Origin: Flavobacteriaceae bacterium
GTDB lineage: Bacteria > Bacteroidota > Bacteroidia > Flavobacteriales > Flavobacteriaceae
DNA: 64,000 bases
Direction: 5' to 3'
Assembly (NCBI GenBank): GCA_013373635.1
Contig: JABXHN010000022.1
Location: 124,001 to 188,000, forward strand
Positions within the stretch are counted from its first letter, which is position 1. The number at the start of each line of letters is the position of its first letter. Below, piece after piece: positions 2,424 to 50,232 of this stretch. The translations under genes were made by a program, and so were the position numbers. The notes beneath the pieces are model-generated. The model worked only from the letters and a program-made list of their open reading frames with translations. It made no database searches and was not told the origin of the DNA.

Positions 2424-3188
2424 TTAACTATTATTTGAAAGTAGTTCTTGAGCTAATTTTAGATAATTATTTGCTCCAGTACTACTAGCGTCGTATTTGA
2501 TGATGGTTTCTCCATAACTCGGAGCTTCACTCAATCGAACATTTCGTTGAATGATGGTTTTAAAAACCATTTCACTAAAGTGCGTATTGACTTCATCGAC
2601 TACTTGATTGGAGAGTCGAAGTCTACTGTCAAACATGGTGAGTAATAATCCTTCAATGTCTAAGTTAGGATTGTGAAGTTTTTGAACACTCTTAATGGTG
2701 TTCAATAGCTTTCCTAGTCCCTCAAGTGCAAAGTATTCACATTGAATCGGAATGATAACTGAATGCGCTGCCGTCAAGGCATTCAAGGTCAGTAAACCTA
2801 AAGATGGTGCACAGTCGATGAGAATATAGTCATAACTGTCAACAATCGGCTTTAAAGCTTCTTTGAGCATGTATTCTCTGTACTGCTTGTCGACCAATTC
2901 AATTTCAATTGCTACTAAATCAATATGGGCAGGAATGATATCGACATTTGGAGAATTCGTAGAAACAATAGCTTCCTGCGCTGAAATCGTATGTTCTAAA
3001 AGCTGATAGGTTCCCAATTCAACCTCTTGCACATCGATGCCTAATCCTGAGGTTGCATTAGCTTGAGGATCCGCATCAATGAGGAGTACTTTCTTTTCTA
3101 GAACCCCTAAAGAAGCAGCTAAATTGACAGTTGTAGTTGTTTTGCCAACTCCACCCTTTTGATTTGCGATAGCAATAATTTTGCCCAT
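2424..3188 (-). CDS. parA: Chromosome partitioning ATPase ParA/Soj
   Basis: MGKIIAIANQKGGVGKTTTTVNLAASL deviant Walker A; start set at the internal Met (ORF extends to 3218). Confidence 0.95.
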   Translation of the reverse strand: MGKIIAIANQKGGVGKTTTTVNLAASLGVLEKKVLLIDADPQANATSGLGIDVQEVELGTYQLLEHTISAQEAIVSTNSPNVDIIPAHIDLVAIEIELVDKQYREYMLKEALKPIVDSYDYILIDCAPSLGLLTLNALTAAHSVIIPIQCEYFALEGLGKLLNTIKSVQKLHNPNLDIEGLLLTMFDSRLRLSNQVVDEVNTHFSEMVFKTIIQRNVRLSEAPSYGETIIKYDASSTGANNYLKLAQELLSNNS

Positions 3189-21465: not shown

Positions 21466-21663
21466 ATTGCATTTTTTCTCAATATGTAAATTTTGAGATC
21501 ATTTTTGACTCTGATTCTTGTATAAAATTCTTTGAGATTGCAAGTGGTTTTAAAATACACTCTTTTTACTTGAGTATATTTCATTTAAGTCGCGTTAATT
21601 CATTGTATTAAAAAAATGAATCAGTGTATTGCAATTGTTTTTAAATCTCTGCTCATCTGACTT

Positions 21664-22054
21664 ATGGTAGTCCTGCTTACCTATTTGTTGATCTTTGTCT
21701 TTGTATTTTTAGGTATGTACAGGCTACATCCTGGACTCTTCTTTTCGGTTATCTACGGCGTTTCTATGTTTCAAGGATGGTTGATGTATGGGTTGATGGC
21801 CTTTGGTTTGTCTTGGTTGGGGTTATTACAGATACCTTCAATTGTCAAACATAAAAAATACTTACATGAATGGATTAATTTGGGGAGGAGTATTTTTTCT
21901 GGTCACTCAATTCGTAATTGCCATTTTTAGATTTATTTTTTCTTTTGAAAAGGATTATGAAATATCAAATAAGACCCTATCACTAGTTATTTTGCATGTG
22001 TTGATCGGTTTGTTGATTTCGTAAGCCACAAAATTCTTATATTCTAAAAACTAA
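21664..22054 (+). pseudogene. Degenerate tandem paralogue of 21025..21465
   Basis: Frame 1 product (GMYRLHPGLFFSVIYGVSMFQGW...) and frame 2 product (GLIWGGVFFLVTQFVIAIFRFIF...) align consecutively to the upstream protein; +1 shift near A6 at 21853-21858 and in-frame TAA at 22022-22024. Confidence 0.7.
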
Positions 22055-22271
22055 AAATTGTGAGATTATAGCGCATTTTTAGTGATAAAATAGCGCCAAG
22101 CTATTATTCCCATTTGAAATTTACTCGCTTTTGAAATATCTAAATTCTTCTTGGTGTAGGAGGGTAGAACTGCTTTATTGATTTTAGCAGTAATTTTAAA
22201 CAATTGTTTTTTGATCATTCTTTTGTTGTTTGCACCGTTAAGTTACAATAAATTTGTATTCTTTTGTGATT

Positions 22272-23675: not shown

Positions 23676-24689
23676 TTATTTCTTTTCAGCAGACTTAACT
23701 GTCTTGATAATTCTTGAAGCTACTTTGTATGGATCAGCGTTAGAAGCAGGTCTTCTGTCTTCTAGGTATCCTTTCCATCCGTGTTCTACAGTGTAAACAG
23801 GAATACGAATTGAAGCTCCACGGTCAGAAATACCATAGCTAAAATCATTGATTGAAGCAGTTTCGTGTTTTCCAGTTAAACGTTGATCATTGAATTCACC
23901 GTATACATCGATGTGAGCGTCAACGTGTGGTCTAAATGCCTCACATACTCTTAAGAAGGTATCTTTGTCTCCACAAGTTCTTAATGTAGTATCAGAGAAG
24001 TTAGCGTGCATACCAGAGCCGTTCCAGTCACCTTTAATTGGTTTTGGGTGGTATTCGATATAGTAACCATATTCTTCAGTTAAACGGTCTAATAAGTAAC
24101 GTCCGATCCAAATTTCATCACCGGCTTTCTTAGCACCTTTTGCGAATAATTGGAATTCCCATTGTCCACAAGCAACCTCTTGGTTGATTCCTTCAAAGTT
24201 TAATCCAGCTTCGATACAAAGGTCTGCGTGACGCTCAACGATTTCTCTTCCGTGGGTGTTTTTACCACCTACTGAACAGTAATACATTCCTTGAGGTCCT
24301 GGGTAACCACCAACTGGGAATCCTAAAGGAAGTTGAGTATGAGTGTCCATGATAAAGTATTCTTGCTCAAATCCAAACCAGAAGTCATTTTCATCATCAT
24401 CGATAGTTGCTCTAGCATTTGATTCATGAGGAGTACCATCAGCATTGTAAACTTCAGTCATTACTAACCACCCGTTTACACGTGCAGGATCTGGGTATAC
24501 AGCTACAGGTTTTAGGATACAGTCAGATGATCCACCTTCAGCTTGTTTTGTAGAACTTCCGTCAAATGACCAGTTGTCAAGATCTTCTAATTTACCACTA
24601 AAGTCGTCTACAACTTTAGTTTTACTTCTAAGGTTAGCTGTTGGAGTATATCCATCTAACCATATGTATTCTAATTTAGATTTAGCCAT
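23676..24689 (-). CDS. Glutamine synthetase, eukaryotic-like GSII type
   Basis: LEYIWLDGYTPTANLRSKTKVV, WSFDGSSTKQAEG, FGFEQEYFI, WNGSGMHANFS. Confidence 0.93.
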   Translation of the reverse strand: MAKSKLEYIWLDGYTPTANLRSKTKVVDDFSGKLEDLDNWSFDGSSTKQAEGGSSDCILKPVAVYPDPARVNGWLVMTEVYNADGTPHESNARATIDDDENDFWFGFEQEYFIMDTHTQLPLGFPVGGYPGPQGMYYCSVGGKNTHGREIVERHADLCIEAGLNFEGINQEVACGQWEFQLFAKGAKKAGDEIWIGRYLLDRLTEEYGYYIEYHPKPIKGDWNGSGMHANFSDTTLRTCGDKDTFLRVCEAFRPHVDAHIDVYGEFNDQRLTGKHETASINDFSYGISDRGASIRIPVYTVEHGWKGYLEDRRPASNADPYKVASRIIKTVKSAEKK

Positions 24690-24753
24690 AATGATATGAT
24701 TTATTGTATTAAAGTTGCACAAAAATAATTAAAACTAAGATTAGGTGATAAAT

Positions 24754-24817
24754 TTTAGGGGTGTAAATATTAAAAACTTATCAAGAATTTCGACACCCTC
24801 TTTTTTTTAGGGGGTAT
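24754..24817. promoter_or_regulatory. Candidate nitrogen-regulatory operator(s) between GSII and GSIII
   Basis: ACACCCTCTTTTTTTTAGGGGGTAT at 24793-24817 plus half-site TTAGGGGTGT near 24755; same layout as glnK upstream sites. Confidence 0.5.
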
Positions 24818-24879: not shown

Positions 24880-27057
24880 ATGGAATCACAACGATTTAAG
24901 GCTGTAAATAATGTACAAGAACGCCAGCCTATTACCATTGATGAACAACAGAGAAGATCTACCTACTTTGCTACAAATGTCTTCGGTGATTTCAATATGC
25001 AACAATACCTTACTTATGATGCTTTAAATGCGGTAAGAGCAGCTATATTTGAAGGGACCAAAATCAGCAGAAAAATTGCTGATCAGGTGGCCGAGGGAAT
25101 GAAAACCTGGGCAATTGAAAAAGGAGCGACACATTATACGCATTGGTTTCAACCTTTGACTGGTTCAACAGCGGAAAAACACGAGGCATTTTTTGATTTA
25201 CAACCCAATGGTCAAGCTATTGAAATTTTTGGAGGGAGCCAGTTAGTACAACAGGAATCAGATGCTTCTAGTTTTCCATCAGGAGGAATCAGAAACACTT
25301 TTGAAGCAAGAGGTTTTACAGCTTGGGATCCGAGTTCTCCAGCCTTTATATACGGTAATACCCTATGTATTCCTACCATCTTTGTCTCTTACACTGGTGA
25401 AGCATTGGATAATAAGGCTCCACTTTTAAAAGCCTTGCACGCCATAGATGAGGCTGCAACTGATGTGTCTAATTATTTTGATAAATCAGTTGCCAAGGTC
25501 AATGCGACTTTGGGATGGGAACAAGAGTATTTTTTAATTGATAAGCAGCTCGCTAATTCCAGAGTGGATATTAGTTTATCTGGAAGAACACTTGTTGGGA
25601 CAGCGCCTGCTAAAGGTCAACAATTGGACGATCATTACTTTGGAGTGATTCATTCTAGAGTACTCAGTTTTATGAAAGAGTTAGAGCAAGAGTGTATTAA
25701 ACTTGGAATTCCAATTAAAACTAGACACAATGAAGTGGCGCCTTCTCAGTTTGAAATAGCACCAAAATATCAAGAGGCGAATTTATCAGTAGATCACAAT
25801 TTACTATTGATGGATTTAATGGAAAAGATAGCCGATAAGCATCAGTTTAAAGTACTTTTTCACGATAAGCCATTTAAAGGACTCAGTGGATCTGGAAAGC
25901 ACAACAACTGGTCACTGCTTACTGATACAGGAACCAATCTCTTGTCTCCGGGATCGACCCCTACTAAAAACCTTCAATTTTTAACTTTTTTTATCAATAC
26001 CATCATGGCTGTTGATACCTATGAAGAGGTTATTAGAGCTTCACTTAGTTCTTACAGCAATGATTTGAGATTGGGAAATCAAGGTGCTCCATCTAAGATA
26101 TTTTCAGTTTTTGTTGGGGCTCAACTAGCTTCTGTTTTAGATGATTTAGAAGGTGTTTCTACTGGAAAATTATCTCCAGAAGAAAAGACGGAATTAAAAC
26201 TCAATGTCGTTGGTAAAATTCCAGAAATCCTCATGGACAATACCGACCGAAATAGAACATCTCCTTTTGCTTTTACTGGAAATAAGTTTGAGATTAGAGG
26301 GGTAGGAGCTAAGGCTAATTGTGCACAAGCGATGACAGTGCTCAATACCGTTGTCGCTCATCAACTCAAAGCCTTTAAAAAAGAGGTCGATCAATTAATC
26401 GACAAAAAAGGACTCAAAAAAGACGAAGCTATTTTTAATGTGCTTAGAGAGTATATTAAAAAATCAAAGAGAATTCGATTTGATGGAGATTCTTATAGTG
26501 ATCAGTGGTTTAAAGAAGCTGAAAAACGCAAACTTTATAGTTTTAAAAACAATGTTGAGGCGATAGGAGTATACGCGGATCCAAAAGTAATTGACTTATT
26601 TGAAAAGGTCCATGTATTTACAGCTACTGAATTAAAAGCTCGACAGGAAGTTGCTTTGAAATCCTATGTGATCAATGCTCAAATTGAAGCGAAAGCATTG
26701 ATCGAAATGGTCAATACTCAAATTATTCCAGCGGCTCTTTCGTATCTAGGATCGCTCTCTTCTTCAGTTGTCAATATCAATCAAGCCTTGTCGAATTCTA
26801 AATCTAATTATTCAACTGATATGGTTCGATCGATTGACAATCAAGTATCTGAATTAAAATCCTTGACTGATCAATTGATAGAAGCCGTAAGTGCTTCTGA
26901 ATCTAAGGAGTCTTTAGATCAAAATGCAAAACTTTCGAGTGAAACGGTGGTTCCTTTAATGGATGCAGTTCGAATTCAGGCAGATGCATTGGAACTTGTG
27001 GTTGCTGATCAGCTGTGGCCAATTACTAAATACAGAGAACTGCTCTACATAAAATAG
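24880..27057 (+). CDS. glnN: Glutamine synthetase type III (GlnN)
   Basis: 725 aa; GWEQEYFLID, KTRHNEVAPSQFEIAP, GSGKHNNWSL, NRTSPFAFTGNKFE. Confidence 0.95.
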   Translation: MESQRFKAVNNVQERQPITIDEQQRRSTYFATNVFGDFNMQQYLTYDALNAVRAAIFEGTKISRKIADQVAEGMKTWAIEKGATHYTHWFQPLTGSTAEKHEAFFDLQPNGQAIEIFGGSQLVQQESDASSFPSGGIRNTFEARGFTAWDPSSPAFIYGNTLCIPTIFVSYTGEALDNKAPLLKALHAIDEAATDVSNYFDKSVAKVNATLGWEQEYFLIDKQLANSRVDISLSGRTLVGTAPAKGQQLDDHYFGVIHSRVLSFMKELEQECIKLGIPIKTRHNEVAPSQFEIAPKYQEANLSVDHNLLLMDLMEKIADKHQFKVLFHDKPFKGLSGSGKHNNWSLLTDTGTNLLSPGSTPTKNLQFLTFFINTIMAVDTYEEVIRASLSSYSNDLRLGNQGAPSKIFSVFVGAQLASVLDDLEGVSTGKLSPEEKTELKLNVVGKIPEILMDNTDRNRTSPFAFTGNKFEIRGVGAKANCAQAMTVLNTVVAHQLKAFKKEVDQLIDKKGLKKDEAIFNVLREYIKKSKRIRFDGDSYSDQWFKEAEKRKLYSFKNNVEAIGVYADPKVIDLFEKVHVFTATELKARQEVALKSYVINAQIEAKALIEMVNTQIIPAALSYLGSLSSSVVNINQALSNSKSNYSTDMVRSIDNQVSELKSLTDQLIEAVSASESKESLDQNAKLSSETVVPLMDAVRIQADALELVVADQLWPITKYRELLYIK

Positions 27058-31838: not shown

Positions 31839-32294
31839 ATGAATTTAAAGCTTGATGATAAAGATTGGAAAATACTATTTGAATTGCAGCGTGATTCGAG
31901 AATATCCATGGCTGAATTAGGAAGAAAAGTAAGTTTATCAAGTCCTTCAGTTCACGCTCGAGTTTCGAAGCTCGAAGATAAAGGAGTTATACATTCTTAC
32001 AAGACAATGGTGGATCACATCAAGGCTGGTTTTCAATTAAAGGCCATGATTATGCTTCGTGTTTTTATGGGAAAACTAAATCCTTTTTTAGATGTTGTTC
32101 CGTCTTTTAAAGAAGTTGTAAATTGCTATCGTGTAACTGGTAATGAAAATATTATCATGGAGGTAGTGTTTGTAGATCAATTTCACTTGGAAAAATTTAT
32201 AGACAAACTCATCAAATACGGAGAGACTAGAACACATATTATTCTTTCAGAAGTCGTATCGGATGCTCCACTAAACAAACCCATTAAGTTATGA
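31839..32294 (+). CDS. Lrp/AsnC family transcriptional regulator
   Basis: LDDKDWKILFELQRDSRISMAELGRKVSLSSPSVHARVSKLED. Confidence 0.93.
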   Translation: MNLKLDDKDWKILFELQRDSRISMAELGRKVSLSSPSVHARVSKLEDKGVIHSYKTMVDHIKAGFQLKAMIMLRVFMGKLNPFLDVVPSFKEVVNCYRVTGNENIIMEVVFVDQFHLEKFIDKLIKYGETRTHIILSEVVSDAPLNKPIKL

Positions 32295-33012: not shown

Positions 33013-34011
33013 CTACAGTGAAACGATTGCTGCAAGAACAAAAGAGCTTAAGCTTTTTGAAGTTCCGTCTAAAAATGCAGCGTCAGATGATGAGTCTAAT
33101 CTAAGTTCAGGCTTTAAGATTAAGTTTCCGATGGTTGCAGAACCTGTAAGTGTTAATGCAATTACTGAACTGTCTTCGACTCCGGTTCCAATAGCGCCAA
33201 AGTCACCAGTTTCTGCAAAATATTCACCTCTTAATCCAATACTAAATGAATCAGAAGTAGCTAATTGTGGGTATAGTGCAACTCCAGTAAATCCAATTTC
33301 ATCAGACTTATAAGATGCAGCGTTGATTCCGAGGAAGAAGCTGTCGCTTAAATCAAAACCTCCAGTATAATCAATTTCATAAGCTCCATCATCCGTTAAA
33401 AAGTTGAAGTATTGACCTTTGATTCCAAATTGAGCTCCAAATGCATAGCTACCAGTTGGGTTGTATTCAGTCATGTCTGTAGGGTTGAATACACCTAACA
33501 TTAAAGAAATATCATCTGCTAATGTGAAATCTGCTTTTATTCCAGTGTGGCTAAATGGACCATATGAGAATAGGTAAGAGGTTGAGTAGTTAAAGTTAGC
33601 GGCAGGAGCAATCACTTCATAACCTAAGAATGTATTAAAGTTACCCATTGATAAGGTTACTTTGTCACTTACATTCCAGTAAGCGTATAATTGGTTAACG
33701 ATGTTTCCTGTAGCTGAGTACATTGGAGAAGCAAAAATAGCGTCAGTACCTCTTGGTCCGAATACTAAATCTGCAACAAATCCTGATTTTTCTCCCTCAT
33801 AAGCTAATACTACATTGGCCATTCCTAAGGCAAATCCATCTAAATTAGCGAAAGAAGATCCTGGAGCTTCTGGAGTAGATCTAAAATAGGTGTCGATAGA
33901 AGCACTTAACTTAAGTGGGCTTTCTTGAGCGAATGTTACAAATGCTACTAGTGAAAGAACTAAAGTAAATGCAATTTTTTTTGTCGGTATTAAAAAGTTG
34001 TTTAAATTCAT
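33013..34011 (-). CDS. Outer membrane beta-barrel porin
   Basis: Signal peptide; SASIDTYFRSTPEAPGSSFANLDGFALGMANVVL, alternating barrel strands. Confidence 0.8.
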   Translation of the reverse strand: MNLNNFLIPTKKIAFTLVLSLVAFVTFAQESPLKLSASIDTYFRSTPEAPGSSFANLDGFALGMANVVLAYEGEKSGFVADLVFGPRGTDAIFASPMYSATGNIVNQLYAYWNVSDKVTLSMGNFNTFLGYEVIAPAANFNYSTSYLFSYGPFSHTGIKADFTLADDISLMLGVFNPTDMTEYNPTGSYAFGAQFGIKGQYFNFLTDDGAYEIDYTGGFDLSDSFFLGINAASYKSDEIGFTGVALYPQLATSDSFSIGLRGEYFAETGDFGAIGTGVEDSSVIALTLTGSATIGNLILKPELRLDSSSDAAFLDGTSKSLSSFVLAAIVSL

Positions 34012-34116: not shown

Positions 34117-35361
34117 TTAGTGTTGGTTGAGACGGAAATCTGAATAAGCGTTCATTCCGTGCTCGTGTAGGTCTAAGCCTTCTAATTCTTCTTCTTTTGA
34201 AACTCTGAGTCCCATAGTTTTCTTAAGAATGTAAAGGATGATGAATGATGTAGCGACACAGAAGATCCCAACTGCAACTACACCTTCTAATTGGTATAGG
34301 AACTGATCCCATCCTGCTAAGTCTCCAAACATTCCAACTGCTAAGGTTCCAAAGATTCCAGTTCCTAAGTGAACTGCGATAGCACCAACAGGGTCGTCCA
34401 ATCTCAAGCGATCGATAAAGCTTACTGCAAGAACGATGATTGCTCCAGCGATCAAACCGATTACAATGGATTCCATAGGAGACATTAAATCAGCTCCAGC
34501 AGTGATTCCAACGAGACCACCTAAGATTCCGTTTAAGAACATGGTAAGGTCAAAGTTTTTGTAAAGGATCGTCGATAAGATAAATGCTCCAAATCCACCT
34601 GCAGCTGCAGCTAATGAAGTTGTTACTAGTACGAGTGATGTAGTTCCAGGATCAGCTGATAATACAGATCCTCCGTTAAATCCAAACCATCCTAACCATA
34701 GGATTAATACTCCGGCAGTTGCCAATGGAATATTGTGACCTGGAATCGCTTTGATGGTTCCGTCTTTTCCAAATTTTCCAATACGAGCTCCTAACAGGTA
34801 TACTGCTACAAGTGCAGCCCAACCTCCTACAGAGTGAACAAGTGTTGATCCAGCAAAGTCATAAAAACCTGCGTCATCACCACCTAGGGTAGAAAGGAAT
34901 CCACCTCCCCATTGCCATGATCCAACAATTGGGTAGATTAATCCAACATATATGATCGTAAAGATCATAAAGGAACCTAATTTAATGCGTTCTGCTACTG
35001 CTCCGGATACAATAGTTGCAGCGGTTGCAGCAAACATTCCCTGAAATAAGAAGTCAGTCCAATAGGTGTAACCTCCATCGGCATAAGCAGCGGTAAGACC
35101 TCCATCAGGAAGGCTTAATCCAAATCCTGAAAATCCTAAGAACCCGTTGAATTCACCTGGGTACATCAAATTAAATCCTGCGATAAAATATAAGAGTAAT
35201 CCTGCGGTGATGATAAAAATGTTTTTAAATAAAATGTTGATGGTATTTTTTTGTCTGGTGAGCCCGATTTCTAAAAATGAAAATCCTAAGTGCATAAAAA
35301 ACACTAATGCTGTTGAGAGCATCATCCAGATGTTGTTGGCGGTAAATAATCCTGCGTCCAT
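34117..35361 (-). CDS. amtB: Ammonium transporter
   Basis: FLFQGMFAATAATIVSGAVAERI, DFAGSTLVHSVGGWAAL, WLGWFGFNGGS. Confidence 0.96.
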   Translation of the reverse strand: MDAGLFTANNIWMMLSTALVFFMHLGFSFLEIGLTRQKNTINILFKNIFIITAGLLLYFIAGFNLMYPGEFNGFLGFSGFGLSLPDGGLTAAYADGGYTYWTDFLFQGMFAATAATIVSGAVAERIKLGSFMIFTIIYVGLIYPIVGSWQWGGGFLSTLGGDDAGFYDFAGSTLVHSVGGWAALVAVYLLGARIGKFGKDGTIKAIPGHNIPLATAGVLILWLGWFGFNGGSVLSADPGTTSLVLVTTSLAAAAGGFGAFILSTILYKNFDLTMFLNGILGGLVGITAGADLMSPMESIVIGLIAGAIIVLAVSFIDRLRLDDPVGAIAVHLGTGIFGTLAVGMFGDLAGWDQFLYQLEGVVAVGIFCVATSFIILYILKKTMGLRVSKEEELEGLDLHEHGMNAYSDFRLNQH

Positions 35362-35421: not shown

Positions 35422-35760
35422 TTAGTTGATTCCTTCGTGTCCGTCCTCTCCAGTTCTAATTCGGTAGGCTTCACTGATTTCAGAGACGAATATTTTGCCA
35501 TCTCCTACGTTTCCAGTTCTAGCAGCTTTCATAACTGCTTCAATAGTTTTGTCTAAGAAATTGTCAGAAACTACAATGGATAACACTCTGCGCTGGATAT
35601 CGGTTGTGCTATATGAGATTCCACGGTAAACGTGTCCTTCTTTTTCGTTTCCTACTCCAGTTACATCCCAGTAACTAAAGAAATTGACTTCGATTTCATG
35701 TAATGCGTCTTTTACATCGTCGAATTTTGATTTTCTGATAATTGCTTCAATTTTTTTCAT
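35422..35760 (-). CDS. glnK: P-II family nitrogen regulator
   Basis: MKKIEAIIRKSKFDDVKDAL, GHVYRGISY T-loop, KAARTGNVGDGKIFV. Confidence 0.95.
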   Translation of the reverse strand: MKKIEAIIRKSKFDDVKDALHEIEVNFFSYWDVTGVGNEKEGHVYRGISYSTTDIQRRVLSIVVSDNFLDKTIEAVMKAARTGNVGDGKIFVSEISEAYRIRTGEDGHEGIN

Positions 35761-35801
35761 AATGAATTGTGTTAAATCAGTTTTTTTTAATGATTGTGAT
35801 T

Positions 35802-35809
35802 CAAAAGTA
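35802..35809 (-). promoter_or_regulatory. Putative -7 box TACTTTTG of glnK-amtB
   Basis: TANNTTTG on minus strand about 42 bp upstream of start. Confidence 0.5.
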
Positions 35810-35824
35810 GATATATTTTTATCT

Positions 35825-35849
35825 ATACCCCTAAAAAAAATAGGGGTAT
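35825..35849. promoter_or_regulatory. 25-bp palindrome ATACCCCTA-A7-TAGGGGTAT (candidate N-regulation operator)
   Basis: Perfect 9-bp arms over the expected -33 region of glnK. Confidence 0.55.
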
Positions 35850-35877
35850 TATATAATAATTATCATATTAATAATTT

Positions 35878-35902
35878 TATACCCTATAAAAATGAGGGTA
35901 TA
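35878..35902. promoter_or_regulatory. Second 25-bp palindrome TATACCCT-N9-AGGGTATA
   Basis: Perfect 8-bp arms, 53 bp from the first palindrome. Confidence 0.5.
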
Positions 35903-35959: not shown

Positions 35960-35986
35960 AAAAAAACAGGAATAGATCCTGTTTTT
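35960..35986. terminator. Terminator hairpin
   Basis: aaaaacagga-atag-atcctgttttt. Confidence 0.65.
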
Positions 35987-40641: not shown

Positions 40642-41652
40642 ATGACACACGAATTTAAAACCCTTGTAGAACACGCCCATAAGTGGCAAAAGGAAGGTAA
40701 AAAATCAGTTTTGGCATCAGTAGTTGCCTTAGAGGGTTCTTCGTATAGAAGACCTGGGGTTCGCATGCTTATAAATGAACAAGGAGAAGCTGTTGGAGCA
40801 GTTAGTGGTGGTTGTGTCGAAAAGGAAGTACATTTTCAATCGCTTTCTGTTTTTAAAGAGGGAACCTCCAAAATGATGACCTATGACGGAACACTTCGTT
40901 TAGGTTGTGAAGGAATCATCTATGTACTTATTGAGCCTTTTGAAGTTTCAGATGATTTTGTTCGAACATTTAACGCTACTTTGGAATTGAGAAGTCCTAT
41001 GAAAATAGTTTCTTATTACAAAAAAGAGTTTGGAGTTTTTGAGGGGATTGGTACTGAAATAATTATTGATAATACTCCATTTACCTTTAACAATTTTAAA
41101 AAGTCAGATTCGGATTTAATTACCTTCGAACAGGAGCTGCCGCCTATTTTTCAATTGCTTATCATTGGAGCAGAACACGATGCAGTTCAGTTGTGTAAAG
41201 CGGCATCTAATGTAGGTTGGCAAGTAACGGTTATGGCCTCTGCTGATGAACAAAAAACCATCGATTACTTTACAGGTGCTCATCAATTGGTGACTCCTCT
41301 GTTCGATCAAATTGATACATCAAAAATAGACGAGCAAACAGCTGTAGTTTTAATGACTCATAGTTTTAATAAGGACGTTCAGTATTTGTCTGCTTTACAA
41401 AATTGTACTCCAGCATATTTTGGACTGTTAGGTCCTAAACATCGAAGAGAGCGTTTAATCAATCAATTTTTGGAGTTTAATCCAGAGGTCGATTCCGATT
41501 TTATAGAGATCCTAAGAGGTCCAGCAGGAATCAATATAGGGGCGGAATCAGCACAAGAAATTGCAATCTCCATTATTGCAGAGATTCTTTCTGTTCTTAG
41601 AAATCAAGAGCCGATCGTATTAAAAGATAAATCAGGAACGATTCATGCCTAA
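40642..41652 (+). CDS. XdhC/CoxI family molybdenum cofactor maturation/insertion protein
   Basis: GSSYRRPGVRMLINEQGEAVGAVSGGCVEKEV; Rossmann-like C-terminal domain. Confidence 0.92.
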   Translation: MTHEFKTLVEHAHKWQKEGKKSVLASVVALEGSSYRRPGVRMLINEQGEAVGAVSGGCVEKEVHFQSLSVFKEGTSKMMTYDGTLRLGCEGIIYVLIEPFEVSDDFVRTFNATLELRSPMKIVSYYKKEFGVFEGIGTEIIIDNTPFTFNNFKKSDSDLITFEQELPPIFQLLIIGAEHDAVQLCKAASNVGWQVTVMASADEQKTIDYFTGAHQLVTPLFDQIDTSKIDEQTAVVLMTHSFNKDVQYLSALQNCTPAYFGLLGPKHRRERLINQFLEFNPEVDSDFIEILRGPAGINIGAESAQEIAISIIAEILSVLRNQEPIVLKDKSGTIHA

Positions 41653-42247
41653 GGTCCCCATTCTTTTATTAGCTGCGGGAGCTTCATCACGAATGGGTTC
41701 TTCAAAGGCATTACTTGATTGGAATAAAGAACCCTTAATTGTTTCTAGAATACAAAATTTATTAGCAACTGGGCAAAAGGTATATGTAGTATTAGGAGCC
41801 TATGCAGACACCATTATCCCCGTTATCAAAGGATTGAAAGTGACCATTTGTACGAATACTCATTGGGAAGAGGGGATGAGCACATCCATAGCTTTTGGAG
41901 TAAAAAGTATCCAATCGAATGAAGAATGGGTCGATGGAATTCTCATAGCCACTATTGATCAGCCATTAGTTGACAATCAACATCTTAAAGCAATTTTGGC
42001 TAGCTTTAAAGAAGGGCAACAACAAATTATAGTTTCAGAATCTAGTAATGGATGGCGTGGAGTTCCTGCACTTTTCGATGCTCATTACCTTGAAGCATTG
42101 AGTCGTTTAAAAGGTGATACAGGAGCTAAAACAATTGTACAGGTACATCCTGAAAAAGTTTATACAGTAAAGGGAGGTGAAAAATTAGTTGATATGGATA
42201 CTCCAGAGCGCTATCAGCAACTTTTAAAAGCTACCCACCAATTGTGA
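41645..42247 (+). CDS. Molybdenum cofactor nucleotidyltransferase (MocA/MobA-like)
   Basis: ILLLAAGASSRMGSSKALLDW, TIDQPLVDNQHL. Confidence 0.92.
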   Translation: MPKVPILLLAAGASSRMGSSKALLDWNKEPLIVSRIQNLLATGQKVYVVLGAYADTIIPVIKGLKVTICTNTHWEEGMSTSIAFGVKSIQSNEEWVDGILIATIDQPLVDNQHLKAILASFKEGQQQIIVSESSNGWRGVPALFDAHYLEALSRLKGDTGAKTIVQVHPEKVYTVKGGEKLVDMDTPERYQQLLKATHQL

Positions 42248-43238
42248 TCATCGATCTATTTTTTGAATGGTGATTTGGATCGGCAAACTTTTCATTGGTA
42301 TCTAGACCTGCTCTTACAGCAGCTTTCGCTAGTACTGCTTTTTGAATAATGGGTTCAATAGATTCTCCGTTTCGATGCGCTGTTAGTAAATCAGATTCTT
42401 TTTCTGAAAACAAGCAATTTCTCAATTTTCCATTAGCAGTTAAACGCAGGCGATTGCAAGAATCACAAAAGGGATTCGTTACCGTACTAATTATTGCGAA
42501 TGACCCTTTAAAGCCCTTAATTTTATAGTTCTTTGCCGTATCGTTTGGGGCGTCTTCTATTTTTAATACGGAATCTTTAGGGTAGGACTCATTTACTAAT
42601 TGGTTTATTTCCTCTAAGCTAACTGCTTTTGAACGGTCCCATCTATTGCCATCAAAAGGCATGAATTCAATAAAGCGAATGGAAATTGGGAGCTCTTTAG
42701 TGAGTTCAATAAAATCTAAGATTTCAGAATCGTTAGTTCCTTTGAGCAATACGACATTTAACTTTATTTGGAATCCCTCATCAATAAGTAAATATAAATT
42801 TTTTATGACCTTCTCAAAGTTTGGTTTCAGGGTCATTTCTTGAAATCGATCGGCTATTAAGGTGTCTAAACTCACATTGATAATGGATACCTTGGACTTT
42901 TTTAACTCAGAAATGTATCGATCAATATTAACTGCATTGGTGGTCATCGCAATGGAGACATCAAGTGTAGAAAGCTTTTCAATGATCGTTGTAAAATCTT
43001 TTCTAACTAGAGGTTCACCGCCAGTTAATCGAATCTTATCCACTCCATTTGCAACGAATACTTTTGCAATTTCATAGATTTCATCGGCAGTCATTAATGC
43101 GGGAGAAGGGGATAGGGGAACTCCTTCTGCTGGCATGCAGTAGGTACACCTTAGATTACACTTTTCTGTAAGAGAAATTCTTAAGTAGTTGTGATTTCTA
43201 CCGAAGGAATCTTTTAATATGTCGGTGTTCAATGCCAT
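42231..43238 (-). CDS. moaA: GTP 3',8-cyclase MoaA
   Basis: LRISLTEKCNLRCTYCMPAEG radical-SAM motif, CDSCNRLRLTANGKLRNCLF. Confidence 0.96.
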   Translation of the reverse strand: MALNTDILKDSFGRNHNYLRISLTEKCNLRCTYCMPAEGVPLSPSPALMTADEIYEIAKVFVANGVDKIRLTGGEPLVRKDFTTIIEKLSTLDVSIAMTTNAVNIDRYISELKKSKVSIINVSLDTLIADRFQEMTLKPNFEKVIKNLYLLIDEGFQIKLNVVLLKGTNDSEILDFIELTKELPISIRFIEFMPFDGNRWDRSKAVSLEEINQLVNESYPKDSVLKIEDAPNDTAKNYKIKGFKGSFAIISTVTNPFCDSCNRLRLTANGKLRNCLFSEKESDLLTAHRNGESIEPIIQKAVLAKAAVRAGLDTNEKFADPNHHSKNRSMITIGG

Positions 43239-44143
43239 TAATGTCTTTTGCCTTTAACTACATCGAATAAGTGTAATATTGTTGGAAATACGGCCTCCAA
43301 AGACTCAGTTGCTCCTTTAGTAGATCCTGGTAATGCAAGAACTAAGCTTTCCCCAATAAGTCCAGCAACCGATCTCGAAAACATAGCAAATGAAGTGCGT
43401 TCTTGCCCATAGGCTCTCATGGCTTCTTCTACGCCTGGAAGTTGTTTATCTAAAAGGGGAATTAAAGCATCTGGAGTGTTATCTCTCGGGGAAATACCCG
43501 TACCTCCACAAAAGAGGATGAGTTGTACACCTGCCTTAGAAAGTGTTTTTGCTCGTTCTTGAATTCCGTTCCTATCATCTGAAATCACATCGTAGTTTGA
43601 TATGGAAACTCCTTGTTGTTCTAGTAATGTACAAAGTGCTTTTCCTGCTTTATCTTCTCCTTCTCCTTTTGAGATAGAATCAGAACAAACGATCACAGCC
43701 CCTTGGATACTTGCTTGTATTTTTTGAACATCCGATTTGCCACCTGTTTTTGACAACAATTTTATCTGTTCAATACTCACCTGTTTGTCGATAGGTTTAA
43801 GCATGTCGTACATATTAAGTGCTACTACAGAGGCACCGTGCATGGCTTCCACTTCAACTCCTGTTTTATAAATGGTTTTAACAGTACATTTAATCTGAAT
43901 TTCTAAACCGTTAATTTCATATTCAAAACCCGTGTATTCTATAGGTAATGGATGACAATCGGGTAGTAACTCAGGGGTTTTCTTAACTCCTAATAAACCG
44001 GCAGCTTTACTCATTTCAAAAACATCTCCCTTGGGGACTTGTTTGTTGTTAATAGCTTCGATAGTAGCTTGGCTCCCCACCTTTACAATGGCTTGAGCAG
44101 TTGCGATTCGCAAACTGTTTTTCTTATGTGTAATATCGACCAT
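43238..44143 (-). CDS. moaCB: Bifunctional MoaC-MoaB/MogA fusion
   Basis: MoaC EMSKAAGLLGVKKTPELLPDCHPLP and EVEAMHGAS; C-terminal ILFCGGTGISPRDNTPDAL. Confidence 0.94.
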   Translation of the reverse strand: MVDITHKKNSLRIATAQAIVKVGSQATIEAINNKQVPKGDVFEMSKAAGLLGVKKTPELLPDCHPLPIEYTGFEYEINGLEIQIKCTVKTIYKTGVEVEAMHGASVVALNMYDMLKPIDKQVSIEQIKLLSKTGGKSDVQKIQASIQGAVIVCSDSISKGEGEDKAGKALCTLLEQQGVSISNYDVISDDRNGIQERAKTLSKAGVQLILFCGGTGISPRDNTPDALIPLLDKQLPGVEEAMRAYGQERTSFAMFSRSVAGLIGESLVLALPGSTKGATESLEAVFPTILHLFDVVKGKRH

Positions 44144-44145
44144 AG

Positions 44146-44586
44146 TTACTTATTTTCTTTCCATTGATGAGTTTCGTCTTCGAAGAGTTCCTTCCCAAAA
44201 ATGGGAACATTTGCTTTAATTTCATTCACTACTTCTTGTAATGCATTAAAAACGGTAGTTCGATGCGCTGCAGAAACAAACACAAAAATACAGATTTCAC
44301 CTGCCTTTACCTTTCCAATACTGTGGTATATGTGCATACAGTGAATAGGGTGCCTCTCAAATGTGTGCTCCTTAATATCATGACAAATTTGATTGGCCAT
44401 TTCTATTTGTGCAGTAAATTCAATTGCTTGAACGATTTTCCCCTCGATTTCATCGGCCCTCACTTGACCTAAAAAAATATCATGAGCTCCAATTCCTGTT
44501 TTGGATTGATGAGCTGCAATAGATTGTGCTATTTTTTCAGGAGTGATGGCTCCTTCGACAAAGATATTTTTAATGCTTTTTTTCAT
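44146..44586 (-). CDS. moaE: Molybdopterin synthase catalytic subunit
   Basis: IFLGQVRADEIEGKIVQAIEFTA, HSIGKVKAGEICIFVFVSAAHR. Confidence 0.93.
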   Translation of the reverse strand: MKKSIKNIFVEGAITPEKIAQSIAAHQSKTGIGAHDIFLGQVRADEIEGKIVQAIEFTAQIEMANQICHDIKEHTFERHPIHCMHIYHSIGKVKAGEICIFVFVSAAHRTTVFNALQEVVNEIKANVPIFGKELFEDETHQWKENK

Positions 44587-45359
44587 GCGTTTATGTTACA
44601 GTCATTTAATTCGATATAAGACAAATCTTCCTCGATTACTTGTTTAACAAGGGATTCATTTCTTCTAAATTGAAAACTGTTTTGTTGATTGGTTAATAGA
44701 TTAATGCTTACAAGTTTACCACTTAGAACTTCACCTAGGTTTAATATCATTTTCAATACTTCATTTGCCTGATAGGTGCCTAAAATACCTGGTAATACTC
44801 CCATTACACCCGCTTCTTCACAATTGGGCACCTCTCCTGCTTTAGGTGGTGTGGGAAACAAACAGCGATACGTTGGACCTCCTGCATAATTAAAAACGGA
44901 TAATTGGCCTTCGAACTTATAAATTGCAGCAAAAACAAAGGGTTTGTTTAGTTTAATGCAGGCATCATTAATTAAATATCGCGTTCTAAAATTGTCTGTG
45001 CAATCCACGACAATGTCATAGGGTTTTATAATTTCTAGAGCATTCGAAGTAGTTAGTGCAACAGGATAGGATTTTATGTTTAGTTCCGAGTTACGAGCAC
45101 TTAAAAGTTCTTTCGCAATATCCGCTTTATTTAAATCAAGATCCTGTTCTCTAAAAAGCACTTGTCGTTGTAAATTGGAAAGGCTTACGGTATCAAAATC
45201 GACAATTCCAATGGTTCCCACTCCAGCTGCATTTAAATAGAGCAATAGAGGAGCTCCAAGCCCACCTGCACCGATGACTAAAACTTTTGATTCAGCGATT
45301 TTTAGTTGACCTATAAGTCCTACTTCTGATAATGTGATATGTCTGCTATAGCGTTTCAT
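44583..45359 (-). CDS. moeB: Molybdopterin-synthase adenylyltransferase MoeB/ThiF/HesA family
   Basis: RYSRHITLSEVGLIGQLKIAESKVLVIGAGGLGAPLLLYL; DCTDNFRTRYLIN. Confidence 0.92.
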   Translation of the reverse strand: MKRYSRHITLSEVGLIGQLKIAESKVLVIGAGGLGAPLLLYLNAAGVGTIGIVDFDTVSLSNLQRQVLFREQDLDLNKADIAKELLSARNSELNIKSYPVALTTSNALEIIKPYDIVVDCTDNFRTRYLINDACIKLNKPFVFAAIYKFEGQLSVFNYAGGPTYRCLFPTPPKAGEVPNCEEAGVMGVLPGILGTYQANEVLKMILNLGEVLSGKLVSINLLTNQQNSFQFRRNESLVKQVIEEDLSYIELNDCNINA

Positions 45360-45363
45360 GGGC

Positions 45364-45597
45364 TTATCCTCCAGAAAAAGGAGGGAATATATCAATATTT
45401 TTAGAGGTTATTTCATCTTCTAGTTCACCAATGGTGTTGTTTTGTGCAATTTTCAAACTGAGTTTCTTTAGGTCAGGGTATTCATTTTCAAGCCATATAA
45501 CAAGCTCTTGAATGGTGATTGCTTCAACATCAAGCACCTCTTTTGATTTTCCAACCACTTCGACTAATTTTCCGTAATAGGTAAGGGTTACATCCAT
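45364..45597 (-). CDS. moaD: MoaD/ThiS family sulfur carrier
   Basis: Small ubiquitin-like protein ending FPPFSGG (C-terminal GG). Confidence 0.9.
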   Translation of the reverse strand: MDVTLTYYGKLVEVVGKSKEVLDVEAITIQELVIWLENEYPDLKKLSLKIAQNNTIGELEDEITSKNIDIFPPFSGG

Positions 45598-46346
45598 TAT
45601 ATTAGTAATAATTTAAAAGAAGCAGCAGCTAGTACCACTACTAAAAGATACTCTAGTTTTTGATTGTTCCACTTTTTAGAACCGTAATAACTTCCCATAA
45701 GTCCTCCAGCTAAAGCTAGGATGATCATAGGTAGTATGGAAGTAGAAAAGGCAACACCAGAGCTGAATTGTCCAATGAGTGCGGCTGAAGAATTAACCCA
45801 AATAAATAATGCGGAAATTGTAGCCGCTTCTTTCATTGAGGACCAGTGTAATAGTAAAAGTACAGGGGTTAAGATAATACCACCACCAATTCCAATTAAT
45901 CCTGAAAAGAAACCAATAAGTCCTCCTATCAGTATGGCTTGATATGGGGATACGTTTTTTACTGCCTCACTGCTCGATGGCTTGTAAAGCATTCTTGCTA
46001 CAGCAACTAATAAAAGCAGTCCAAGGATTTTTTTGTACAAATTAGGGTCAATATTAAAAACGCCTCCAAGGTAAGCTGCTGGAATTGATCCAACGGCAAA
46101 CCATACAAATAGCTTAAATTTAAAATGTCCTGCTTTGTAATATTGGTAAAATGAAATACCCGCAACAAACAAGTTTAAGATCAGAGCGGTTTGTTTCATG
46201 ATCTCGTTGGGAAATGAAAATAGCGCCATCAAAGCTAAATAACCACTGGCACCACCATGTCCAACACTGGAATAGAGAAAGGAAACTACAGGTAAAAGAG
46301 CAAAGAAGTAAAAAATCGGCTCCATGATTAATTCGGAATTAGCCAT
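45597..46346 (-). CDS. TSUP family (TauE/SafE) membrane transporter
   Basis: SSVGHGGASGYLALMALF, GFFSGLIGIGGGIILTPVLLL. Confidence 0.92.
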   Translation of the reverse strand: MANSELIMEPIFYFFALLPVVSFLYSSVGHGGASGYLALMALFSFPNEIMKQTALILNLFVAGISFYQYYKAGHFKFKLFVWFAVGSIPAAYLGGVFNIDPNLYKKILGLLLLVAVARMLYKPSSSEAVKNVSPYQAILIGGLIGFFSGLIGIGGGIILTPVLLLLHWSSMKEAATISALFIWVNSSAALIGQFSSGVAFSTSILPMIILALAGGLMGSYYGSKKWNNQKLEYLLVVVLAAASFKLLLI

Positions 46347-47503
46347 GTTTTTGCACGAGTTCCTTTCTCCATTAAGGTTGTATAAGACGGAACAAATACT
46401 AAGGCATTCGCTTTTGAAAAACTTAGTAATGTAGCCGAATTGTGTTCATCAATAATATGAGCTTGGGATTCATGAACAAGAGCTTTTAAGAAAAGCGCTC
46501 TACCAAATTTATTAGAGATACTCGAATCGATGGTGGTGTGTATACAAGATAATCCATCGCTCTTTTTTCCTAATAATTTATGGAGGATTGGAACAACGTA
46601 TACATAAAAACAATTGAGTGTCGAAGCGGGATTCCCTGGAAGTGCAAAGACCATTTTTGAGTCTTTTTTTCCAAAAAACAAGGGTTTTCCTGGTTTTTGA
46701 TTCACTTTATAAAATTCTTCTTGTACTCCTAAATTTTCTAGCGATTCACGTACAAAATCGTAGTCGCCTACCGAAATACCTCCAGATATTAATACTAAAT
46801 CGGATTTTAAGGCTTCCTCAAGGCTGTTTTGAGTATCCTCTAAAGTATCTTGAGTATAATAAATCGAACAATTTTTAATTCCTTGTTGATTTAAGGCTGA
46901 TTCTAAAACAACACTGTTGCTTTCAAATACTTTTCCTTCTTGAAAGGATTCTCCAGGTTTTAAGAGTTCATTTCCAGTAACGACGATAGCTACTGAAGGC
47001 TTGTTATGGATAAGCACCGATCGAATTCCCATACTTTGCAAAAGTCCTATCGAAGATGGATTTAGAATATGTCCTTTAGAAAACACAAGATCTCCAGCGT
47101 TCATTATACTACCAATAGGACGAATATTTTGTCCTTGCTTAGGTGCTTCTTCCAATAGAATGGTTTGATCTAAACGGTTTGCTTTTTCTTGAATTACAAC
47201 AGAATCGGCTGAGGAAGGAACCATGGCTCCCGTAAAAATGCGAACTGCTTCTCCAGGATTTAAATGAAATGTCTTTGAGGATCCTGCAGCCATTTCACCG
47301 ACCACTTTATAAGTAAGGGAATCATGAGATTTTAATGCATAGCCATCCATGGATGATTGAGCGAAGTGGGGTAGAGATATCATTGCAATGACGTCATCTG
47401 CCAAAACACTTCCACAGATACGAGAAGAAACAGCTGCAAAAACGCTTGTGTTTTTTACAGCTGTTTGATGTATGAGTTCTAGAGCTTTTTCTACTTCAAT
47501 CAT
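46328..47503 (-). CDS. moeA: Molybdopterin molybdenumtransferase MoeA
   Basis: HFAQSSMDGYAL, IFTGAMVPSSADSVV, LISGGISVGDYDFV, ALPGNPAS. Confidence 0.95.
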   Translation of the reverse strand: MIEVEKALELIHQTAVKNTSVFAAVSSRICGSVLADDVIAMISLPHFAQSSMDGYALKSHDSLTYKVVGEMAAGSSKTFHLNPGEAVRIFTGAMVPSSADSVVIQEKANRLDQTILLEEAPKQGQNIRPIGSIMNAGDLVFSKGHILNPSSIGLLQSMGIRSVLIHNKPSVAIVVTGNELLKPGESFQEGKVFESNSVVLESALNQQGIKNCSIYYTQDTLEDTQNSLEEALKSDLVLISGGISVGDYDFVRESLENLGVQEEFYKVNQKPGKPLFFGKKDSKMVFALPGNPASTLNCFYVYVVPILHKLLGKKSDGLSCIHTTIDSSISNKFGRALFLKALVHESQAHIIDEHNSATLLSFSKANALVFVPSYTTLMEKGTRAKTWLIPN

Positions 47504-47512
47504 TAAGATTTA

Positions 47513-49765
47513 TTATGAATTTAATTCATTGATAAATGGTTGATGGTAAAGACGTTTCCCACTGGCGCTATATATTGCATTGGCAAGTGCGGCCTGTACA
47601 GGTGGATAAGGAGGTTCTCCCATTCCAGTTGGAGCGATATCGCTCTTTACAAAATCAACAGAAACTTTCTTAGGTGCTTCGTGATGTCTAATGAGTCTGT
47701 ATTTATCAAAATTGTCTTGCTGAGGCATTCCATCTACAAAACTTAATCCGCCATACATAGCAGTTCCAATCCCATCTACTGTCCCACCCTCAGCAAGGTT
47801 GGTTGCTGCATCTGGGTTGACAACGATTCCGCAATCTACCGCTGCGAATACCTCGTCAATTATAGGTTTAGAACCATCCATGCGAACATCAACTACGTTA
47901 GCTACATAGGATTGATGACAATAGTAAGCAGCGACTCCTCTTTTGAGATCTTTTTTGTCTTCTGCACCCCATTTGGCGTTTTTCTTAACGAGTTCCAAAA
48001 CTCCTGCATAGCGTTTAGCATCGTAATCATTACGCTCTCCAACAGGCTTGTCTTGGGCTCTTTTTAAAAGTTCCAATCTAAATTCTAAAGGATCTTTTCC
48101 AAGTGTTTCAGCTAATTCATCAAGGAATGATTGTTCTGCCGATGCGTTAAAATTAGAGCGGGGGGCTCTGTAGGCACCGATGGTAATATTTGAAGGAATC
48201 ACCCATTTTTCAGCTAAATAATTATCGATAGCTCCAGCTGGGAATCGATTTTCATGTAAAGGGCTTTCAGGAATTCCACCTCCAATGACGTGTATCGCAG
48301 TGAGATTGTTGTTTTTATCGATTGCCGCTCTATACTTTAACGTATAAGCAGGACGATAAGTTCCATAGGTCATGTCATCTTCTCGAGTATAGACCAGTTT
48401 AATAGGAGCTTTCACATGTTGAGATATCAAAGCTGCTTCAACAACAAAGGTTCCGTAGAGACGTCTTCCAAATCCACCCCCCATTCGACTCAAGTGAACT
48501 TCAATTTTTTCTCTCGGCATTTTTAATCGAGTAGCCACAGAACCTTCAGCAGCTTCAGGAGTTTGAACAGGACCCGATAGGATCGCGCGATCCTCAGTGA
48601 CATCCGCAAAGAAGTTCATAGGCTCCATCGTATTATGTGCTCTAAAAGGGGCAGTATAGGTTCGTTCTAATACTTTTGCAGCTTCTTTAAATGCCTTTTC
48701 TGGATTACCATCCTTACGAGCTGTTTGAAGTGGTAGTCCAGAATAATCATTTAATTTTTTATTGTGATCAACTGAACTCTCTAATCCAGTAGGAATGGAC
48801 ACATCAGTTGCATTGCCACCCCAACCTGCTTGCTTAATGGTGGTTTTTGGCATATTTTGCCACACTACTTTAAGTACTTTTTTAGCTTTCATCACCTGCC
48901 AAGTAGATTCTCCTACAATCACCACCTGTTCATTAAAGGCAGTGATGTCGGACCAGCCTCTCGCATCTTCATCATTGAAGGTATTGATGGTAAATACATC
49001 TTTGATCCCAGGCATATTGATGACCGAAGAGGCATCGAAAGACTTTAAGACTTTTCCAAAAGCAGGGGGGTGTACGATCATTGCTGTGAGCATACCCTCT
49101 TCTTTAATATCTAAACCAAAGAGGGGTTTTCCAGTAACGATATTTTTCCCATCGACATTCTTTTTGGAGTGTCCGATGATTTTATAATCAGCTAGTTCTT
49201 TGAGTTCCACTTCTTCTGGTACCTCTAAGATAGATGCTTTCTCAGCAAATACACCGTAGTGATCTGATTTTCCAGAAGCTTTATGAGTAATAATTCCATT
49301 AGAAGTTGTGAGCTCCTCAATAGGAACACTCCAAGATGAAGCGGCTGCCATCAATAACATTTTACGAGCAGTGGCTCCTGCTTGTCGTAGAGGAACCCAA
49401 CTACTGCCAATTGATCTAGAACCACCCGCAATTTGCCAGTTACCAAATAGACCCACATTAAGTGGAGCCTGTTCTACAAGAACATTTTTCCAATCGATAT
49501 CCAATTCTTCGGCCACGAGCATCGGCATCGAAGTCTTTACGTTTTGACCGATTTCAGGGTTGGGTGACATAATAGTTGCTAGGCCGTTTTCTCCAATCTT
49601 TAAATAGCCATTTAATTCATACCAATTATTTGGTAACGCCATCAGTTCTCTTTCAGTTGAATTACAAGATGCAAGCCAATTGAAACTCAAAATGATTCCA
49701 CCAGAACCGAGGGAAACATTTCTTATAAATTCTCTTCTTGAGGTTTTTGTTTTAAATGTAGACAT
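47513..49765 (-). CDS. Xanthine dehydrogenase-family molybdopterin-binding subunit (isoquinoline 1-oxidoreductase beta-like)
   Basis: SRREFIRNVSLGSGG Tat motif, LASC lipobox; RMGGGFGRR, IGAYRAPRSNFNA, GMGEPPYPPVQAALANAI. Confidence 0.94.
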   Translation of the reverse strand: MSTFKTKTSRREFIRNVSLGSGGIILSFNWLASCNSTERELMALPNNWYELNGYLKIGENGLATIMSPNPEIGQNVKTSMPMLVAEELDIDWKNVLVEQAPLNVGLFGNWQIAGGSRSIGSSWVPLRQAGATARKMLLMAAASSWSVPIEELTTSNGIITHKASGKSDHYGVFAEKASILEVPEEVELKELADYKIIGHSKKNVDGKNIVTGKPLFGLDIKEEGMLTAMIVHPPAFGKVLKSFDASSVINMPGIKDVFTINTFNDEDARGWSDITAFNEQVVIVGESTWQVMKAKKVLKVVWQNMPKTTIKQAGWGGNATDVSIPTGLESSVDHNKKLNDYSGLPLQTARKDGNPEKAFKEAAKVLERTYTAPFRAHNTMEPMNFFADVTEDRAILSGPVQTPEAAEGSVATRLKMPREKIEVHLSRMGGGFGRRLYGTFVVEAALISQHVKAPIKLVYTREDDMTYGTYRPAYTLKYRAAIDKNNNLTAIHVIGGGIPESPLHENRFPAGAIDNYLAEKWVIPSNITIGAYRAPRSNFNASAEQSFLDELAETLGKDPLEFRLELLKRAQDKPVGERNDYDAKRYAGVLELVKKNAKWGAEDKKDLKRGVAAYYCHQSYVANVVDVRMDGSKPIIDEVFAAVDCGIVVNPDAATNLAEGGTVDGIGTAMYGGLSFVDGMPQQDNFDKYRLIRHHEAPKKVSVDFVKSDIAPTGMGEPPYPPVQAALANAIYSASGKRLYHQPFINELNS

Positions 49766-49776
49766 GATCTTAATAA

Positions 49777-50232
49777 TTAACTGTTAGACGCTCTTTTGAT
49801 GGCTTTCTTTATTCGAGTGTATGTACCACAACGACATAAATTTCCACTCATTCCCATTTCGATTTCTTCATCAGTAGGATGAGGGTTGTTTTTAAGAAGA
49901 GAAACTGCAGTCATGATCTGTCCAGTTTGACAATAACCACATTGAGGTACATCTTCTTCCAGCCAAGCTTGTTGTACAGGATGTTCTCCATTTTCTGAGA
50001 GTCCTTCTATAGTAGTAATTTCACTGTTTCCAACCATAGATACTTGAAGTTGACAAGCTCTGGTTGCCGTCCCATCTAAATGAATAGTACAAGCACCACA
50101 TTGAGCGATACCACAACCGTATTTGGTTCCAACGAGATTTAAATGATCTCTGAGTACCCATAAAATGGGAGTATCTGGTTCTACATCGACTTGATGCGAT
50201 GCTCCGTTAACCTTAAGTGTAAATTGAGCCAT
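49777..50232 (-). CDS. (2Fe-2S)-binding subunit (isoquinoline 1-oxidoreductase alpha-like)
   Basis: [42 protein letters not shown]. Confidence 0.95.

Follow-up and report, generated by a model that had tools for sequence, protein, structure and literature searches.

In oceans, soils, and guts, Bacteroidota are among the major degraders of polymers, and no description of a transcriptional nitrogen regulator of Bacteroidota was found in open-access full text. In the stretch of Flavobacteriaceae DNA analyzed here (64,000 nucleotides, called the window below), two palindromes are found in front of glnK-amtB. This raises the question of what the palindromes are and which protein they may serve.

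Palindromes in front of nitrogen-assimilation genes of the window

glnK encodes the PII protein (35422-35760, minus strand; PF00543). It is accompanied on the same strand by amtB, which encodes the ammonium transporter (34117-35361; PF00909), and, after amtB, by a gene for a BBP2 beta-barrel porin (33013-34011; PF07642). In other genomes the same kind of porin heads the amtB-glnK operon, and the palindromes precede the porin gene. Both palindromes of the window are on the minus strand and match the consensus ATACCCCTAAAATTTTAGGGGTAT. The proximal one, ATACCCCTAAAAAAAATAGGGGTAT (35825-35849), has perfect 9 + 9 bp arms flanking seven A; its dyad is at 35837, about -40, and it spans the -33 region. 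The distal one, TATACCCTATAAAAATGAGGGTATA (35878-35902), has 8 bp arms and a 9 bp centre, and its dyad is at 35890, about -93. The -7 box of glnK is TACTTTTG (35802-35809, minus strand; consensus TANNTTTG), with an inferred transcription start near 35797.

The first-pass annotation of this DNA had placed both palindromes, the -7 box, and a third site between the glutamine synthetase genes correctly to the base, and the centre spacing of 53 bp that it gave is the distance between the two dyads. It had also described the two palindromes as identical in extent. While both cover 25 bp, their arms are in different registers (the core common to all three window sites, once aligned, is CCC-N11-GGG), so the identical extent is partly a coincidence. 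Scored with the final motif matrix, the three sites reach 22.9, 16.6, and 23.5 bits, where the chance level is 0.4 matches above 12 bits in a shuffled 64 kb sequence. Across the full 2.5 Mb genome, TACCC-N13-GGGTA has just one further occurrence.

The third site lies between two divergent genes. One is glnA (23676-24689, minus strand; PF00120/PF03951), whose likely start is the ATG at 24689 (MAKSKLEYIWLDG; the mechanical open reading frame starts at 24722), and the other is glnN, which encodes a type III glutamine synthetase (24880-27057, plus strand; PF12437/PF18318). The palindrome, ACACCCTCTTTTTTTTAGGGGGTAT (24793-24817, minus strand), has its dyad at 24805, about -90 of glnA; it is the distal site for glnA and is also upstream of glnN. 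The 25-mer noticed earlier at this place is real but not solitary, being half of a glnA-directed pair. Its partner is a degenerate proximal half-palindrome, ACCCCTAAAATTTATCACCT (24743-24762, minus strand), with the dyad at about 24752.5 (about -37.5), and the -7 box of glnA, TATTTTTG (24720-24727, minus strand), is 25-26 bp downstream of this dyad, which would put the glnA transcription start near 24715. The two members of this second pair are 52-53 bp apart, in the same layout as at glnK. Other glnA promoters have the same geometry, and the intergenic site is present in all eight fetched loci of relatives that contain this intergenic region.

Conservation of the pair at glnK loci

The search for GlnK covered 60 relatives and a one-genome-per-species collection, and the upstream DNA was read. 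The motif fitted to the glnK upstream sites is atACCCCTAAAATTTTAGGGGTat, with an information content of about 22 bits. As an untrained criterion, a pair was defined as two copies of ACCC-N11-13-GGGT, with at most one mismatch, 51-55 bp apart. Of 63 related loci, 21 have such a pair immediately upstream of glnK, compared with a mean of 0.02 after shuffling. The other 42 loci have no immediate pair, partly since glnK is not the first gene. When glnK is internal (e.g., in loci L019, L022, L024, L027, L053, L062, and L067), the pair is often found before the first gene of the operon, which is usually the porin gene. Lutibacter oricola has two copies of glnK, with one site at each.

Genome-wide distribution of the motif

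A sequence-only model built from the glnK sites (R1) was used to scan the relatives, 91 Flavobacteriaceae genomes, and 197 genomes of the class. Genes counted as nitrogen genes were glnK-amtB, amtB, glnN of the GSIII type, glnA, gltB, the alanine dehydrogenase gene, and porin genes leading ammonium-transport operons. In the 91 Flavobacteriaceae genomes, 41 distinct sites were obtained at E ≤ 0.004, and 39 of them are located before nitrogen genes, so that the enrichment extends past glnK, the gene used for training. According to the first-pass annotation, its reading would be refuted if the motif were not conserved upstream of orthologous glnK and glutamine synthetase genes, or if it occurred at background frequency at unrelated promoters. 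The motif is kept at glnK/amtB and at glnN/glnA, and with this share of the top family matches at nitrogen genes the refutation did not materialize.

The two exceptions in the family are L182 and L185. In L182 (genome G031) a strong palindrome at 1500-1523 is found between folP and a DUF1599-like gene, which is followed by an ABC-type permease gene. Matches within coding sequences are mainly weaker ones. In the 197 class genomes, strong matches outside Flavobacteriales are found at glnN (L216, L217, and L218), and another match, L214, falls within an open reading frame. The bare half-site pair GGGGTNT-N30/31-ACCCC shows no clear excess over a reversed-pattern control in 296 class genomes and is thus too weak for defining a regulon by itself. 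Functionally, the element is very probably a nitrogen regulon operator. Ammonium-dependent expression through the site is an inference, and no expression data under nitrogen limitation were found.

Promoter geometry

When the distance is taken from each dyad to the nearest TANNTTT box, it clusters at 25-28 bp for proximal sites and at 77-81 bp for distal sites. The clusters consist mostly of glnK promoters; glnA, porin, and amt promoters are within the same ranges, and glnN and gltB promoters scatter. The -7 box TANNTTTG occupies positions -12 to -5 (PMC9723704), which puts the dyads near -38 (proximal) and -91 (distal). TANNTTT[GA] follows the proximal site in 20 of the 21 paired glnK promoters, and GG-N10-GC is found in only one of them. 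The criterion that a TANNTTTG -7 box of the main sigma factor of Bacteroidota should be at a fixed distance (25-28 bp) past the proximal site is met.

A second amtB-glnK operon in the window's own genome (L155, positions 2930-3009; G000:C16) also has two palindromes, at a distance of about 54 bp, and its -7 box, TAATTTTG, lies between them and not downstream of both. The pair is the more constant unit; how it is placed with respect to the promoter differs from gene to gene.

Occurrence outside Flavobacteriales

Of 64 genomes outside Flavobacteriales, 15 have GGGGT-N31-34-ACCCC upstream of glnN, compared with 0.03 by shuffling, and half-sites at these genes have almost no spacing other than 31-34 bp. 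Palindromes of 20 bp in a 53 bp pair have their inner half-sites at just this spacing. Before glnN in these other orders, the pair is about 21 bp (two helical turns) nearer to the promoter than at glnK, which puts the proximal half-site over the spacer between the -33 and -7 elements. The glnN promoters of L230-L253, and others outside Flavobacteriales, often have the inner half-sites alone (GGGGT-N32/33-ACCCC). In promoters of the L230-L253 type, ACCCC is 8-13 bp before the -7 box, and the right half of a proximal palindrome would overlap the promoter.

At the Bacteroidales glnK loci L093 and L085 (Prevotellaceae, Alistipes), a TANNTTTG box is preceded by GGGGGTAT half-sites or by one site only, at about 27 bp. 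The element may reach into some Bacteroidales, though most are without it. The arrangement recurs before nitrogen-assimilation genes across Flavobacteriaceae and, in a weaker form, in the wider class Bacteroidia.

Activation or repression

What is observed is a conserved motif that comes in pairs, together with its position and its gene targets. The palindromes are read here as paired operators of a dimeric transcription factor for nitrogen control in Bacteroidota, most likely an activating one. We give this reading a probability of roughly 0.7; protein binding, nitrogen sensing, and activation are inferred. One dimer of a homodimeric factor would be bound to each palindrome. A dyad distance of 53 bp corresponds to five helical turns, so the two dimers would be on the same face of the DNA, probably touching each other or RNA polymerase. 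The proximal dimer, at about -38, would fill the -33 region of the TANNTTTG promoter in place of the -33 contact and would most likely recruit RNA polymerase with the main sigma factor under nitrogen limitation. Activation would be strengthened by the distal dimer at about -91. Predicted targets are glnK-amtB, other amt operons, glnN, glnA, gltB, and the gene for alanine dehydrogenase.

A symmetric site that has a fixed partner and keeps a fixed distance to a main-sigma -7 box, over a missing -33 element, is the classic layout of activators that contact RNA polymerase, where a second dimer adds strength. The activator-dependent promoter suggested by the first-pass annotation is supported to the extent that the proximal dyad is usually 25-28 bp from the -7 box and covers the -33 region, but activation itself, while the most likely mode, is inferred from this layout. 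Against it, the position is not fully uniform: the layouts of the second amtB and of glnN in other orders deviate, and both would fit repression too.

The same operators could serve a repressor. Two dimers would bind cooperatively under nitrogen excess, possibly with a short loop, and exclude RNA polymerase, and nitrogen limitation would release them. Because of the shifted layouts at glnN and the second amtB, repression remains possible: varied positions suit a repressor, and there is overlap of the proximal site with the -33 region at glnK and with the -33/-7 spacer at glnN in other orders, and at the second amtB the two palindromes flank the -7 box. The narrow distance of 25-28 bp to the -7 box at several unrelated genes, together with the lack of a -33 element, is better suited to an activator, and the shifts of about 21 bp (two turns) between promoters keep the helical face, which a simple blocker would not need. 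We consider repression unlikely on these grounds, without dismissing it.

Comparison with known regulatory systems

Patterns of sigma-54, NtrC, NtcA, GlnR, CRP, FNR, NrpR, NarL, and IscR are absent from both window regions, in agreement with the first-pass annotation, which did not recognize the palindromes as sigma-54, NtrC, or NtcA sites. The NtrC/sigma-54 system of Proteobacteria is similar in having tandem palindromes upstream of glnK-amtB and glnA. It differs in that both window regions lack the NtrC enhancer GCACC-N5-GGTGC and the sigma-54 -24/-12 element GG-N10-GC, and the promoter here is of the TANNTTTG type. For Flavobacterium psychrophilum, the predicted sigma-54 regulon is described as one of gliding motility, exported proteins, and protein quality control/envelope stress (PMC9723704).

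The GlnR/TnrA consensus TGTNAN7TNACA is likewise absent from both window regions. The palindrome bound by GlnR and TnrA of Bacillota (MerR family) is AT-rich in its centre and precedes amtB-glnK and the genes for glutamine synthetase and glutamate synthase; at some promoters the sites are paired. The AT-rich centre and the nitrogen target genes are thus shared with the sites described here, while the half-site (ACCCC, not TGTNA), the 53 bp pitch of the pair, and the TANNTTTG promoter class are different.

NtcA of cyanobacteria (CRP/FNR family) activates a nitrogen regulon from a site near -41.5 that substitutes for the -35 contact. The position is about the same as here, but the half-sites of the present palindromes are wider apart than in CRP/FNR sites, and the NtcA site GTA-N8-TAC is absent from both window regions. 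Class III promoters of CRP have sites at -41.5 and -93.5. Like the present arrangement, they place two dimers at a distance of about 52 bp and in almost the same positions; they differ in motif, genes, and probable protein family. The type 1 site of IscR (Rrf2 family, ATASYYGACT...AGTCRRSTAT) is also a 25 bp palindrome with ATACCC/GGGTAT ends, but the inner GACT/AGTC is missing here, and the Rrf2/IscR core ATASYYGACTRWWWYAGTCRRSTAT was not found by the pattern check.

Candidate regulators

The binding protein is not identified. No motif was seen before a regulator gene among the family and class matches, and no regulator gene recurs beside glnK or glnN in the neighbourhoods examined. Lrp/AsnC and small MerR proteins are possible regulators, for which there are no binding data.

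The window has a gene for an Lrp/AsnC-type regulator between the glutamine synthetase genes and glnK (31839-32294, plus strand; PF13412/PF01037), within the conserved glnA/glnN...glnK cluster, and its product may be the factor. It holds the same cluster position in three genera. In E. coli gltBD is under the control of an Lrp-type protein, and in mycobacteria so is ald. Such proteins recognize AT-rich palindromes, and the octamers that they form could bridge two sites. The synteny is seen only at the scale of the cluster and not as adjacency to glnK or glnN; it is shared by the unrelated genes prfA, pyrF, and purM, and no palindrome precedes the Lrp/AsnC gene itself. It is a weak candidate, and we doubt that it is the regulator.

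A small MerR-like protein (about 110 aa) of nearly every Bacteroidia genome, acting in the manner of GlnR/TnrA, would be a long shot. MerR-type proteins occur in 49 of the 50 genomes searched, including all motif-bearing ones, which does not discriminate, and the small one is the sole MerR protein found in the motif-bearing G046, G047, and G042. Its size, along with the distance from dyad to contact, resembles the situation at GlnR/TnrA sites with AT-rich centres. It is also found, however, in genomes whose glnN lacks the motif, and its gene belongs to an unrelated operon without a preceding motif and has no direct link to nitrogen. In L294-L323 a MerR-like protein of about 110-130 aa, whose role is unknown, is encoded in several cases beside an M23-peptidase-like gene near alaS.

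The CRP/FNR family is disfavoured as the source of the regulator. No CRP-type HTH (PF13545) was found in G047 (92% complete); all other motif-bearing genomes that were searched have one. Outside this genus, a protein of 350-375 aa with a CRP-type HTH is encoded by many Bacteroidia (e.g., L324-L326); it is probably a CRP-type regulator joined to a receiver or sensor domain. A regulator of the Rrf2 family is unlikely. No Rrf2 protein was found in G046 and G047, which have palindrome pairs, or in G243, G245, and G171, which have the motif or half-sites.

That the palindromes are instead transcription terminators, attenuators, other RNA hairpins, or a dispersed repeat is hardly tenable. Their palindromic form, their A/T-rich centres, and their location past the end of crcB would fit it, but crcB has its own terminator in a separate hairpin (35962-35986, minus strand), the spacing to the -7 box is fixed, there is no Rfam match, copies per genome are very few, and sites also occur between the divergent genes glnA/glnN and gltB/porin, where there is nothing to terminate and a terminator role is ruled out.

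Novelty and significance

The paired operators of a dimeric factor thus remain the preferred reading. A nitrogen-regulon operator as such is of a known kind; the sequence, the pairing, and the probable regulator appear new, provisionally. No description of this operator was found in open-access full text. The first-pass annotation had called it a candidate undescribed operator, and the word "undescribed" stays provisional because most subscription papers were outside the search. By a small margin over even odds, we believe that this is a class-wide form of nitrogen control in Bacteroidota, in which an unidentified protein, as two dimers 53 bp apart, would do the job of NtrC, NtcA, and GlnR elsewhere.

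The analysis yields a defined operator, a promoter geometry, and a predicted regulon that covers ammonium transport, glutamate synthase, alanine dehydrogenase, and both glutamine synthetases. Together they narrow the hunt for the regulator to a pulldown and provide a handle for ammonium-controlled expression in flavobacteria.

Other genes of the window

At 40642-50232 of the window, moaA/moaC/moaE/moeA-like molybdenum-cofactor genes are found beside genes for a xanthine-dehydrogenase-like oxidoreductase and an XdhC-like protein. At 21466-22253, about 790 bp between membrane-protein-like and truncated-haemoglobin-like genes have no open reading frame of at least 90 aa, and this region may contain a decayed or frameshifted membrane-protein gene.
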